A stretch of DNA of 64,000 bases from Thermoleophilia bacterium SCSIO 60948 (GTDB taxonomy: Bacteria > Actinomycetota > Thermoleophilia > Solirubrobacterales > 70-9). Position numbers and translations under genes: made by a program. The DNA is taken from assembly GCA_021496505.1 (NCBI GenBank), contig CP053031.1, positions 2,720,001-2,784,000 on the forward strand, read 5' to 3'. Positions 6,911-24,235 of this stretch are shown piece by piece. Below the pieces are notes generated by a model, which was given only the letters and a program-made list of their open reading frames with translations, was not told the DNA's origin and did no database searches. The stretch's first letter is position 1. Each line of letters begins with the position of its first letter.

Positions 6911-8152
<1,242 letters not shown>

Positions 8153-8184
8153 CGCCCTCCTATCGGCGCGCCGGCCGGAGCGCG

Positions 8185-9174
8185 TTAGCCAGTCGCCGGG
8201 TCACCGGCGAGACCGCTGCGACCCGAGTCCTCACCGGCCGTTCGCGCGCCGCTCCCGGCGGCACGGTCGCCGCGCGACTGCTGCTCGGAGCCCTCCGCCG
8301 GCTCGACGACCCGGCGCGAGCCGCCGTTGGCGCCGGGGTCGCCGCCGTCGGGATGGTCGAGCGGCAATGCCGCGTCGCAGAACGCGGCACCGAAGCTCGT
8401 CAGCGAGATCGCGCGTCGCTCGGTGCGCCCGTGGCCGGCCCGCTCGAGCGCCTCGATCACCTCGGGCTGGGCCTCGACGACCTGGTAGACCCGGGGGTCC
8501 GGGAGCGGCTCGTGGGGAAACCAGATCAGCCCGAGCCGGGCGAGGTTGTCGAGGTTGGCGTGGATCCGCTCCGGGCGGCGCATACCCGACTCCGCTCCGA
8601 TCATCGACAGGCCGGCGGCGACGAGCGTCGAGCCGACGCCGAGCGGGCGCCAGGTCCTGACGTCGACGGCGGGCTGCGGGCCCCGCGTCGCGAGCAGCCG
8701 GAGGATCCGTGCCTCGTCCGGAGCGATGTCCTCGAGGATCCGCTCATAGGCGGGATGCGAGAGGTCGGTCTGCTCGGGGTCGTGGACGTCGGCCGAGCGC
8801 CGCAGCAGCTCCGCGCCGCGCAGCTTGAGCTCGGCGTGCTCATCGTCCTCGGGCACGTCCTGTTCGGCCGCGCCGGGCGGCGGCGCCGTGTTCGGCGGGG
8901 GCTCGATGCCGAGCAGTCGCCGCGCGCCACCGCGCAGCTCGTCCGCCGCCTCGCCGGCGAGCAGCGCCGGGTTCTCACCGCGGGCGACGGCGCGCAGGAC
9001 GCGCGAGGACGCCCGCGCACCCGTCGAGACGGCCCACGTGGCGGTGTTGACGTAGACGTCGAAGGCGAGCCGCGCCAGCCCCGGCGCCTGGGCGGCGACA
9101 CCCTCGTCGCGTCGGGCGCCGTTCTGGGAGCCGGGGACGTTCGGCGCGCTCGGGTCCGACTCGTGAGTACCCAT
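8185..9174 (-). CDS. Cytoplasmic protein resembling DUF4393 / Abi-alpha family
   Basis: This is a 329-aa protein. The middle part has the pattern HPAYERILEDIAPDEARILRLL followed by a second domain about residues 200-260, which reminds me of DUF4393 (called Abi-alpha). The N-terminal ~90 residues are Ala/Arg-rich, and the last ~60 are low complexity and likely disordered. The ATG at 9174 lies 2 nt after the stop of the DUF445 gene (TAG-cc-ATG), so the two are translationally coupled. A longer open frame running upstream is the antisense-free shadow of the DUF445 gene and was rejected as coding. Function is unknown. The family name hints at phage abortive infection, but nothing here proves that. 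Confidence 0.7.
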   Translation of the reverse strand: MGTHESDPSAPNVPGSQNGARRDEGVAAQAPGLARLAFDVYVNTATWAVSTGARASSRVLRAVARGENPALLAGEAADELRGGARRLLGIEPPPNTAPPPGAAEQDVPEDDEHAELKLRGAELLRRSADVHDPEQTDLSHPAYERILEDIAPDEARILRLLATRGPQPAVDVRTWRPLGVGSTLVAAGLSMIGAESGMRRPERIHANLDNLARLGLIWFPHEPLPDPRVYQVVEAQPEVIEALERAGHGRTERRAISLTSFGAAFCDAALPLDHPDGGDPGANGGSRRVVEPAEGSEQQSRGDRAAGSGARTAGEDSGRSGLAGDPATG

Positions 9175-20919: not shown

Positions 20920-22701
20920 TCATGCCTCGAGCGTCTGCAGCCACATCTCGAGCGTGCCGAGCTGCCAGAGGCGGTTTCCGTCGAGGTTCGTCATGTGCTC
21001 GTTCGGCGCGTCGAGCAGTCGCCGGACCTCGTCGGGGCGAAACAGCGAGCGGTTGGCGGCCGCGCGCGACAGCAGCGCCTCGCGGACCATCTCGAGCGGC
21101 TTGCCCTCGAGATGGGAGATGGCCGGCACCGGAAAATAGCCCTTCGGCCGGTCGATGACCTCGCTCGGCAGCAGGCGGCGACCGGCGTCCTTGAGCACGC
21201 CCTTGCCCTCCTGATCGAGCTTGAGCTCGGGCGGGCAGCGGGCCGCGAGCTCGACCAGCTCGTGGTCGAGGAACGGCACCCGCGCCTCGACGCCCCAGGC
21301 CATGGTCATGTTGTCGACCCGCTTGACCGGGTCGTCGACCAACATCACCTCGGTGTCGATCCGCAGCGCCCGGTCGACCGGCTCGTCGGCTCCCGGTCGC
21401 CCGAAGTGGCGGCGGACGAAGCGCTCCGAGGGGTCGTGGTCGAGCAGGTAGGCGTCGGTGACCGTCCGCCGCACGTCGGAGTGATCGCCGTCGAAGAACG
21501 CCGAGCGGTAGGTCTCGAAGCCCGAGCCGTCCGCGTCGGCATCGGCGACCTTCTCGTACCAGTGGTAGCCGGCGAAGACCTCGTCGGCGCCCTGGCCCGA
21601 CTGGACGACCTTGACGTGCTTCGAGACCTGCTCGGAGAGCAGGAAGAAGGCGACGTTGTCGTGGCTCACCATCGGCTCGGACTGGGCCGCGATGGCGTCG
21701 GGCAGCGCGTCGACGAGCCGCCCGACCGGGACGCGATCGCGGTGATGGACGGTGCCGTAGCGCTCGGCGACCAGATCGGAGTAGTGGAACTCGTCGCCCG
21801 AGCGCCCGCCGACGGACTCGAAGCCGACCGAGAACGTCTCGAGCCCGGTCTGCCCCTGCTCGGCGAGCAGCGCCACGATCAGGCTGGAGTCCAGGCCGCC
21901 CGAGAGCAATACGCCGACCGGGACGTCGGCGACCATCCGCCGCTCGACGGCGAGCCGCAGCGCGCCCAGGACCGCGTCCTGCCAGTCGGCCGCGTCCATG
22001 TGGTCCTCGCCGGAGTCGCGCGAGAAATCGGGCCGCCAGTAGACGCGCTCCTCGCGCGACCCGTCGGGCTCGATGACCATCAGCCGGCCGGGGCCGAGCT
22101 TGCGTACCCCGCTGAGGACGGTTCGCGGCGCCGGGACTACCGCATGCCAGCTCATGTAGTGGTGGAGCGCGACGGGATCGACCGACGTGTCGACGCCGCC
22201 CCCGGCGATCAGCGCCTGCGGGGTCGAGGCGAAGCGGAAGGACCCGTCGACCTCGGAGTGGTAGAGCGGCTTGATGCCGAGCCGGTCACGCCCGAGGATC
22301 ATCCGGCCCGGTCCGCGCTCGACGAGCGCGAACGCGAACATCCCCAGCAGATGGTCGACGAAATCGAGGCCCCAGCGGTGGTAGGCCTTGATCAGGACCT
22401 CCGTGTCCGAGGTCGAGAAGAAGCGGTAGCCCTCGGCCGTCAGCTCCTCGCGGAGCTGGGGATAGTTGTAGATGCAGCCGTTGAAGACGATCGCGATGCC
22501 GAGCTCGTCGTCGACCATCGGTTGCGAGCCGGTCTCGGAGAGGTCGATGATCTTCAGCCGCCGATGCGCGAGCGCGATCTGCCCCTCCGCCCACGAGCCG
22601 TCGCCGTCGGGACCGCGCGGGGCGACGCGGGCCGCCATCCGCTCGGCGCGCTCGCGGCTCGCAATGCCGCCCGGAACGATCTCTCCCGCGAACCCGCACA
22701 T
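20920..22701 (-). CDS. AsnO-like glutamine-dependent amidotransferase (asparagine synthase family)
   Basis: This 593-aa enzyme uses glutamine nitrogen to amidate a carboxylate. Cys2 in MCGFAGE is the nucleophile of the class II glutaminase domain (RGPDGDG, NGCIYNY). The C-terminal synthase domain has the PP-loop SGGLDSSLI near residue 270. Length and blocks such as HRRLKIIDLSE, HHYMSWHAVVPAPRT and VVQSGQGADEVFAGYHWY closely recall the AsnO group that makes N-acetylglutaminylglutamine amide in proteobacteria, rather than ordinary AsnB. An AGGAGGTC site precedes the ATG. The ATP-grasp gene ends 10 nt upstream, so the pair is co-transcribed. Plain asparagine synthesis is the alternative. Confidence 0.8.
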   Translation of the reverse strand: MCGFAGEIVPGGIASRERAERMAARVAPRGPDGDGSWAEGQIALAHRRLKIIDLSETGSQPMVDDELGIAIVFNGCIYNYPQLREELTAEGYRFFSTSDTEVLIKAYHRWGLDFVDHLLGMFAFALVERGPGRMILGRDRLGIKPLYHSEVDGSFRFASTPQALIAGGGVDTSVDPVALHHYMSWHAVVPAPRTVLSGVRKLGPGRLMVIEPDGSREERVYWRPDFSRDSGEDHMDAADWQDAVLGALRLAVERRMVADVPVGVLLSGGLDSSLIVALLAEQGQTGLETFSVGFESVGGRSGDEFHYSDLVAERYGTVHHRDRVPVGRLVDALPDAIAAQSEPMVSHDNVAFFLLSEQVSKHVKVVQSGQGADEVFAGYHWYEKVADADADGSGFETYRSAFFDGDHSDVRRTVTDAYLLDHDPSERFVRRHFGRPGADEPVDRALRIDTEVMLVDDPVKRVDNMTMAWGVEARVPFLDHELVELAARCPPELKLDQEGKGVLKDAGRRLLPSEVIDRPKGYFPVPAISHLEGKPLEMVREALLSRAAANRSLFRPDEVRRLLDAPNEHMTNLDGNRLWQLGTLEMWLQTLEA

Positions 22702-22711
22702 CGCCGACCTC

Positions 22712-24235
22712 CTATCCCCGTCCCGCCCGCTCTGCCACGACCCAGGTGTCCTTGGCCCCGCCCTTCTGCGACGAGTTGACGACGAAGGCGCCGCGGTCGC
22801 GCGCGAAGCGCGTCAGACCCCCGGGGACGATCAGATCGCCGATCGCGAACGCTCGCAGGTCGACGTGGCGCGGCTCGAGCGCGCCGTCGTGGACGGTCGG
22901 GTGGGTCGAGAGCTCGACGGTCTCCTGGGCCACGAATCCCTCCGGGTCGCGCTCGACCTCGCGGCGGATCCGCTCGCGGTCCTCGGGCCGCGCGTGGGCG
23001 CCGATGAAGACCCCATATCCCCCGTGACCCGCCCGCGGCTTGATCACGAGCTCCTCGAAGCGCTCGAGCGCGGCGGCGCGCTCGTCGGGCCGGGTCAGGT
23101 CGATCGTTCGCACCGACTCGACGAGGGGCTCCTCACCGAGGTAGAAGCGGATCATCGCCTCGACGTAGGCATGGGTCAGCTTGTCGTCGGCGACCCCGGT
23201 CCCGAAGCCGTTGACGACCGTGAGCCTGCCGGCGCGAAGCGGCTCGAGGAAGAGCCCGGCCACCCAGTTCGGCGACCCGGTCGCGTCGACGAGGAGCTCC
23301 TCGTCCGAGCGCCGCAGGACGACTCCGACCTCGGACTCCTCCCCCGCGACGGTCGCGAGCAGGACGTCGCCGCGGAGTCGCAGCGCCGCCGGCTCGACGA
23401 CCGCGACGCCGAGCCGCCGGCCGAGCTCGTCGTGCTCGAATCGCGCGCCGGCGTCGATCGAGTCGGAGAGCAGGACCGCGAGCTCGGGTCCCTCGGGCGG
23501 GCGCGCGGCCTCGAGGACGGCGGCGAGCCCATCGACGGCCGGATCGATGTCGAGCCGCGCGCCGCGGGTCGCGTCCAGCTCGACCGAGGCGGCGGCCAGC
23601 CCCTCGTCGAGCGCCTGCCGCGCGGCGAGCGCGTAGGCGAGGCCGGACGGGGTGCGCAGGTTGTCCTCGAGCACACGCAGGACGCCGTCCCGGCCGCGGA
23701 CGAGGTCGAATCCGATCAGCGGCGTGTGCCCGCCGGGGACGGCGACGCCGTCGAGCAGCGGCTGATGGTGCTGGGCGAGGTCGATGACCCGAGCCGGCAC
23801 GACGCCCGCCGCGACGATCCTGCGCTCGCCGTAGAGGTCGGCGAGGAACGCGTTCAGCGCCCGGGCTCGTTGCGCCAGCCCGGTGGCGATCGCGTCCCAC
23901 TCCGCGGCGGCGATGACCCGGGGCACGGGATCTACGTGGAAGGTCTGGCCGCGCCGACCGCCGAAGGTGACGTCGCGCCGGGCGAGACGGCGTTGGAGGT
24001 CGGACTCGAGCCGAGCGAGGTCGACGCCTTCGAGCGCCCCGATGAGCTCGCGGTACTCGGGACGCGGCTCGCCGTCGCGCAGGAGCGCCTCGTCGCGGTG
24101 CTCCGGTAGGTAGGGCCCGCGCGGGGGAGCCTGCGACTGTCGGGGTTCGTGGGGCGAAGCCCGCGAAACGCTATTCGATGACGCTCCGGGGGGCTCGCGC
24201 TCGCAAGCCTCTGCGAGACTGGGGGCATGGACCAA
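22712..24235 (-). CDS. Circularly permuted type 2 ATP-grasp ligase
   Basis: This family (DUF404/DUF407 type) is thought to form peptide or amide bonds with ATP. Conserved blocks seen are RRGQTFHVDPVPRVI, EWDAIATGLAQRARALNAFLADLYG, NGFGTGVADDKLTHAY, VIKPRAGHGGYGVFIG and GLTRFARDRGAFVVNSSQKGGAKDTWV. The 5' end is uncertain: conservation begins near 24105, but no in-frame ATG, GTG or TTG occurs until the TTG at 24235, which overlaps the start of the divergent MBL gene. A -10-like TAGCGT (24173-24168) suggests a shorter product with an unusual start. It is followed after 10 nt by the AsnO-like gene. The usual alpha-E partner of this family is absent. Confidence 0.82.
   Translation of the reverse strand: MVHAPSLAEACEREPPGASSNSVSRASPHEPRQSQAPPRGPYLPEHRDEALLRDGEPRPEYRELIGALEGVDLARLESDLQRRLARRDVTFGGRRGQTFHVDPVPRVIAAAEWDAIATGLAQRARALNAFLADLYGERRIVAAGVVPARVIDLAQHHQPLLDGVAVPGGHTPLIGFDLVRGRDGVLRVLEDNLRTPSGLAYALAARQALDEGLAAASVELDATRGARLDIDPAVDGLAAVLEAARPPEGPELAVLLSDSIDAGARFEHDELGRRLGVAVVEPAALRLRGDVLLATVAGEESEVGVVLRRSDEELLVDATGSPNWVAGLFLEPLRAGRLTVVNGFGTGVADDKLTHAYVEAMIRFYLGEEPLVESVRTIDLTRPDERAAALERFEELVIKPRAGHGGYGVFIGAHARPEDRERIRREVERDPEGFVAQETVELSTHPTVHDGALEPRHVDLRAFAIGDLIVPGGLTRFARDRGAFVVNSSQKGGAKDTWVVAERAGRG

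Follow-up and report, generated by a model that had tools for sequence, protein, structure and literature searches.

An AsnO-Family Amidotransferase Gene Adjoins a Circularly Permuted ATP-Grasp Ligase Gene

The window, a 64,000-nt stretch of the genome of Thermoleophilia bacterium SCSIO 60948, carries on its reverse strand two neighboring genes, one encoding an AsnO-family glutamine-dependent amidotransferase of 593 aa (20920..22701) and the other a circularly permuted ATP-grasp ligase of the PF14403/PF04174 kind (22712..24235), hereafter CPG. The coordinates bear out the preliminary description of two genes 10 nt apart on one strand: the CPG stop codon occupies 22714-22712, the asnO ATG lies at 22701 and its stop codon ends at 20920, and the intervening gap (22702..22711, reverse strand) holds a GGAGG sequence resembling a ribosome-binding site. 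The GC content of the pair (about 71-74%) is in line with that of the flanks, which led us to reject the idea of a foreign island.

The amidotransferase scored 929 bits over residues 1-590 against TIGR03104, the N-acetylglutaminylglutamine amidotransferase equivalog (cut-off 570), and 286 bits against the AsnB equivalog, under the cut-off of 499, so that identity as AsnB was rejected, in agreement with its earlier description as AsnO-like. It also exceeded the cut-off of TIGR01536, and in Pfam it matched Asn_synthase (303 bits) and GATase_7. Its catalytic blocks were intact, including Cys2 in the initial MCG, the pyrophosphate-binding loop SGGLDSS (residues 267-273; 21883..21903, reverse strand), SGQGADE and RPKGYF. 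Two further genes with the Asn-synthase fold were present in the genome, one of which is a true AsnB by score (506 bits).

CPG scored 335 bits against CP_ATPgrasp_2 (PF14403; cut-off 32) with the full profile covered, and retained all of the conserved catalytic blocks (LEDN.RxPSG, GVADDK, KPxxGxGG, RHVDLR, and VNSSxxGGxKDTW), while an NCBIfam search matched it to no equivalog. Its start is uncertain. The first in-frame start codon downstream of 24835 is a TTG at 24235, which overlaps a divergent metallo-hydrolase gene; the conserved part of the protein begins at about 24110, no ATG or GTG was found near this conserved N-terminus, and the codon aligned there is GTG in a same-genus genome and CTA in the window. 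A structure model of CPG (mean pLDDT 70, built from 7 sequences, sufficient for matching folds and not for docking) resembled a putative glutathionylspermidine synthase (3n6x), eukaryotic glutathione synthetases and the E. coli glutathionylspermidine synthetase.

The known partner of AsnO, Ngg (TIGR03103), was not found in the genome, where the best match reached 32 bits against a cut-off of 569, and the partner in the window is a circularly permuted ATP-grasp ligase instead, as had been proposed. The accompanying remark that such ligases usually occur with alpha-E proteins held for the family and failed for this member: the genome encodes no alpha-E protein (PF04168), which ruled out an alpha-E association there, and since CPG is also its sole PF14403 protein, CPG is not of the alpha-E-linked kind. 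In three relatives that do have alpha-E (G017, G007, and G122), alpha-E directly adjoins a different, higher-scoring PF14403 gene.

AsnO Adjoins Either Ngg or GCS2- and CPG-Type Ligases

We scanned 84,980 species' genomes once and classified the best 80 AsnO loci by their neighboring ligase. Ngg adjoined AsnO at 56 of these loci, CPG and/or a GCS2 carboxylate-amine ligase did so at 22, and both sets occurred together at none; the remaining two, with neither ligase type in their flanks, were mycobacterial. At 16 of the 22 non-Ngg loci the ligase was a single protein, a GCS2::CPG fusion confirmed by Pfam, with hosts that included Frankia, Micromonospora, Actinoplanes, and Pseudonocardia. The pairing is therefore not unique to SCSIO 60948, as the same families are neighbors in many actinobacterial lineages. 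Together with the retention of the CPG location in another species of the same genus, this argues that the pairing of AsnO with CPG did not arise by chance.

In a phylum-level sample, AsnO was present in 44 of 396 genomes and Ngg in 31 of those 44, and among the 13 AsnO genomes without Ngg, GCS2 and/or CPG adjoined AsnO in 12. In the thirteenth (G520), CPG lay on another contig within a 922-aa open frame, the size expected for a GCS2::CPG fusion. Five Streptomyces-like genomes had GCS2 and lacked CPG genome-wide, four of them with the arrangement GCS2-AsnO-S9, from which we concluded that CPG is not always needed. AsnO can thus adjoin either ligase or both.

The associated hydrolases also varied. 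An S9 peptidase gene came next at most GCS2/CPG-type AsnO loci, M42 was frequent at Ngg loci, and DUF1028, an Ntn-hydrolase family, took the place of the hydrolase at Rubrobacter-like AsnO loci. Four such loci (L123, L124, L125, and L009) were CPG-AsnO-DUF1028 operons, some preceded by a very divergent GCS2, and the order GCS2-AsnO-S9 was seen at Streptomyces and Streptomyces-like loci L059, L085, L126, L138, L139, and L140. Several individual loci departed from these arrangements. At L136 S9 came immediately after the GCS2::CPG fusion without an intervening AsnO, and AsnO was not found elsewhere in that genome (G537, 87% complete). At L131 (G503 C5:21757-23426) Ngg took the form of two overlapping frames, GNAT and ATP-grasp, perhaps reflecting a split gene or a frameshift, and at the AsnO/GCS2::CPG locus of Micromonospora foliorum (L065) the other strand bore an additional GCS2 gene, unfused and divergent (7809-8942).

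The Thermoleophilia CPG Belongs to a Set With a C26 Hydrolase and GCS2

Within Thermoleophilia, AsnO was detected in 4 of 249 genomes: two with Ngg, SCSIO 60948, and G017, which has GCS2-AsnO. The CPG subfamily of the window, delimited by a gap in scores, was commoner, occurring in about 19 of the 249. Because most Thermoleophilia with this type of CPG have no AsnO, we reasoned that the core job of CPG needs no amidation. Of the 17 CPG loci in AsnO-less genomes, 13 had a same-strand Peptidase_C26 gene and 12 a GCS2 gene no more than 1 kb away, mostly arranged as CPG-C26-GCS2; four of the 17 had neither nearby. AsnO joins this set piecewise, and the four genes are linked to one another in different combinations across relatives: C26-GCS2-AsnO at L044, C26-AsnO-CPG at L024, GCS2-AsnO with CPG-C26 elsewhere in G017, and CPG-AsnO in the window.

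Phylogenetic analysis placed the window CPG within the Thermoleophilia clade of CPGs linked to GCS2 and C26 (SH-aLRT 98). The genome of SCSIO 60948 also carries a C26-GCS2 operon, at about 860.8-862.8 kb and unlinked from CPG-AsnO, and the GCS2 encoded there fell inside a clade of CPG- and AsnO-linked GCS2 proteins (SH-aLRT 98), while three other GCS2 paralogs of the same genome fell outside it. The window CPG thus belongs to the Thermoleophilia CPG-C26-GCS2 set by its clade, and both partners are present in the genome at a distance. Since the genome holds the missing pair elsewhere, we view GCS2, CPG, C26, and AsnO as a split module, in which the unlinked C26-GCS2 pair may work together with CPG-AsnO. 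At this distant locus (L106 4814-7949 and 8423-9949, about 0.86 Mb) the C26 hydrolase and GCS2 genes overlap in one operon, adjoined by genes that, named from their sequences, encode a PucR-like regulator and an AmtB-like ammonium transporter.

The genes for GOGAT and GSIII beside the pair had been suggested to feed the pathway, an idea that gained no support from the distribution of these genes: GSIII was present in nearly the whole family (19 of 21 genomes), whereas SCSIO 60948 was the only family member in the class sample with AsnO. No GOGAT or GSIII neighbors were seen at other AsnO-CPG loci in the neighborhoods inspected. In that other species (one same-genus genome), CPG likewise adjoins MBL-GSIII; the location of CPG is therefore stable within the genus, which is uninformative on feeding. 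The adjacency of GOGAT and GSIII looks incidental.

AsnO Sequences Differ With the Type of Partner

The window AsnO resembled Ngg-linked AsnO proteins (mean 62%, maximum 66%) and GCS2/CPG-linked ones about equally, and 180 of its 593 positions were 98% conserved across both types. The two types differed consistently at positions 570, 572, 574, 380, and 528-529, of which 380 is the residue after a conserved active-site Tyr and 528-529 follow the conserved RPKG loop. At 570-577, a putative specificity segment, Ngg-linked AsnO has an LTPLRG-like segment and GCS2/CPG-linked AsnO has RTxLG[AS]N; the window protein, with MTNLDGNR (20971..20994, reverse strand), fits neither. In particular, it lacks the [LI]TPL-type segment (reading MTNLDGN) that marks Ngg-linked AsnO, a regularity that emerged from the present alignment and is unpublished as a criterion. 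From the fold of AsnB and beta-lactam synthetase, we would expect sites 570-577, 380, and 528-529 to line the active site. The differences by partner type suggest, at the level of sequence, that the two types may act on different substrates. Joint switches of partner and motif numbered only 1-3 (one independent pair on starred branches and three on all), too few for a test.

A Proposed Pathway to a Gamma-Glutamyl-Capped Peptide Amide

We lean, by a modest degree, toward the interpretation that CPG and AsnO form one half of a module whose four genes are split between two loci and which produces and recycles a short peptide amidated at its C-terminus, with GCS2 and CPG in place of Ngg. In such a pathway, the GCS2 encoded beside C26 elsewhere in the genome would couple an amino acid to glutamate at the gamma-carboxyl, giving a gamma-glutamyl product; CPG, as a relative of eukaryotic-type glutathione synthetase, would add a further residue; and AsnO would use glutamine nitrogen to convert the free C-terminus into an amide. 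Breakdown of the product would fall to the C26 hydrolase, a role that S9 and DUF1028 peptidases might fill in other lineages. GCS2 plus CPG would in this way replace the two domains of Ngg, a GNAT cap and a RimK-type ATP-grasp, and the GCS2::CPG fusion repeats this two-domain layout with different folds. The Ngg of S. meliloti both acetylates a glutamine and couples it to another, leaving the dipeptide to be amidated by AsnO (PMC8070244).

We infer a gamma-glutamyl-capped peptide from the chemistry of GCS2 enzymes, which activate a carboxylate by phosphorylation, in most cases the glutamate gamma-carboxyl, before ligating an amino acid to it (PMC2588565), from the glutathione-synthetase-like fold of CPG, and from the C26 (gamma-glutamyl hydrolase) family, whose members include gamma-glutamyl-GABA hydrolase. 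The product would likely be of the gamma-glutamyl-(glutaminyl-)glutamine amide class, serving as a compatible solute or a nitrogen store; the substrates, the order of the steps and an osmotic role are likewise proposals, and homology makes an osmolyte function plausible. The earlier suggestion that the pair offers another way to a C-amidated peptide is supported, and was incomplete in that GCS2 and the C26 hydrolase had been missed.

The same genes could instead make N-acetylglutaminylglutamine amide (NAGGN) in a non-homologous way, with CPG forming the Gln-Gln bond, an unlinked GNAT or an acetate-using GCS2 supplying the acetyl group, and AsnO acting as usual. The near-equal closeness of the window AsnO to both partner types and the large share of positions conserved across them are what this scheme would expect; we nonetheless think it unlikely, because the two types differ consistently at the sites listed above, the standard Thermoleophilia neighbor is a gamma-glutamyl-type C26 hydrolase, and a GNAT gene is absent from the shared set. 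Less likely still, CPG and AsnO might suffice for a dipeptide amide here, leaving some other job to the distant C26-GCS2 operon. The pair does stand alone in the window, and G319 has CPG-AsnO-DUF1028 without an adjoining GCS2, but the GCS2 of SCSIO 60948 falls in the CPG/AsnO-linked clade and sits beside a matching C26.

We find it improbable that the pair belongs to a peptide-tagging or protein-modifying system such as has been proposed for CP-ATP-grasp/alpha-E/Anbu operons, in which AsnO would amidate the tag. The ATP-grasp superfamily is shared, and an ATP-grasp protein of an Anbu operon hydrolyzes ATP (PMC6376114); against this, the genome has no alpha-E, the dipeptide associated with the AsnO family is a free one, and the accompanying hydrolases belong to small-peptide families. 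Most improbable of all is that AsnO is a mere asparagine synthetase with CPG as an incidental neighbor: the fold is shared and the TIGR01536 cut-off was exceeded, yet the TIGR03104 and AsnB scores given above point the other way, the genome has a separate AsnB, and the pairing recurs over many lineages.

Relation to Known Systems

Each of the families involved, AsnO, CP-ATP-grasp, and GCS2, was already known. The NAGGN pathway was reportedly described by Sagot et al. in 2010 as AsnO plus Ngg, a GNAT::ATP-grasp protein. Like the set considered here, that pathway (AsnO, Ngg, and an M42 peptidase) places an AsnO of the same equivalog family together with a ligase and a peptidase, as in the P. aeruginosa genes PA3459-PA3461 (PMC8070244). 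The present set differs in having CP-ATP-grasp and GCS2 rather than Ngg, and C26, S9, or DUF1028 rather than M42, and in the C-terminal motif of AsnO. With the CP-ATP-grasp/alpha-E/transglutaminase/Anbu operons of Iyer et al. (2009), as these are cited in PMC6376114 and PMC5666114, it shares the ATP-grasp family PF14403, whereas the genome of SCSIO 60948 is without alpha-E and its CPG belongs to a distinct Thermoleophilia clade linked to GCS2 and C26. Glutathione synthesis by gamma-glutamylcysteine ligase and glutathione synthetase, or by the bifunctional GshF, offers a further parallel, a GCS-type ligase and an ATP-grasp of glutathione-synthetase fold that are often fused; the ATP-grasp of the window type, in contrast, is circularly permuted (PF14403) and coupled to an amidotransferase. 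In a literature search that did not extend to Iyer et al. (2009), we found no paper on a combination of GCS2, CPG, and AsnO.

About a quarter of the sampled AsnO loci have a mutually exclusive set of ligases in place of Ngg, which makes it likely that their product is different or is made in another way. Tentatively, and with somewhat less confidence than we place in the module itself, we propose that actinobacteria have a second class of peptide-amide solute, gamma-glutamyl-capped and made through GCS2, CP-ATP-grasp and AsnO, as a counterpart to NAGGN. TIGR03104 labels every such AsnO an N-acetylglutaminylglutamine amidotransferase, from which genome papers then deduce a NAGGN osmolyte; if the proposal is true, the product has been misnamed in many of the "NAGGN" annotations given to Frankia, Streptomyces, Micromonospora, and Thermoleophilia. 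To our knowledge, neither the CP-ATP-grasp nor the YbdK-type GCS2 ligases have an established physiological product, and the AsnO loci give both a concrete and testable setting.

One published case bears on such annotations. In Casuarina Frankia, an asnO-"ngg" locus whose "Ngg" shows less than 15% identity, and which has a dipeptidase gene between "ngg" and asnO, was labeled as ordinary NAGGN (PMC5563000). This is probably the same system as GCS2::CPG with AsnO; at the Frankia loci that we surveyed, GCS2::CPG adjoined AsnO, accompanied at some by an S9 peptidase.
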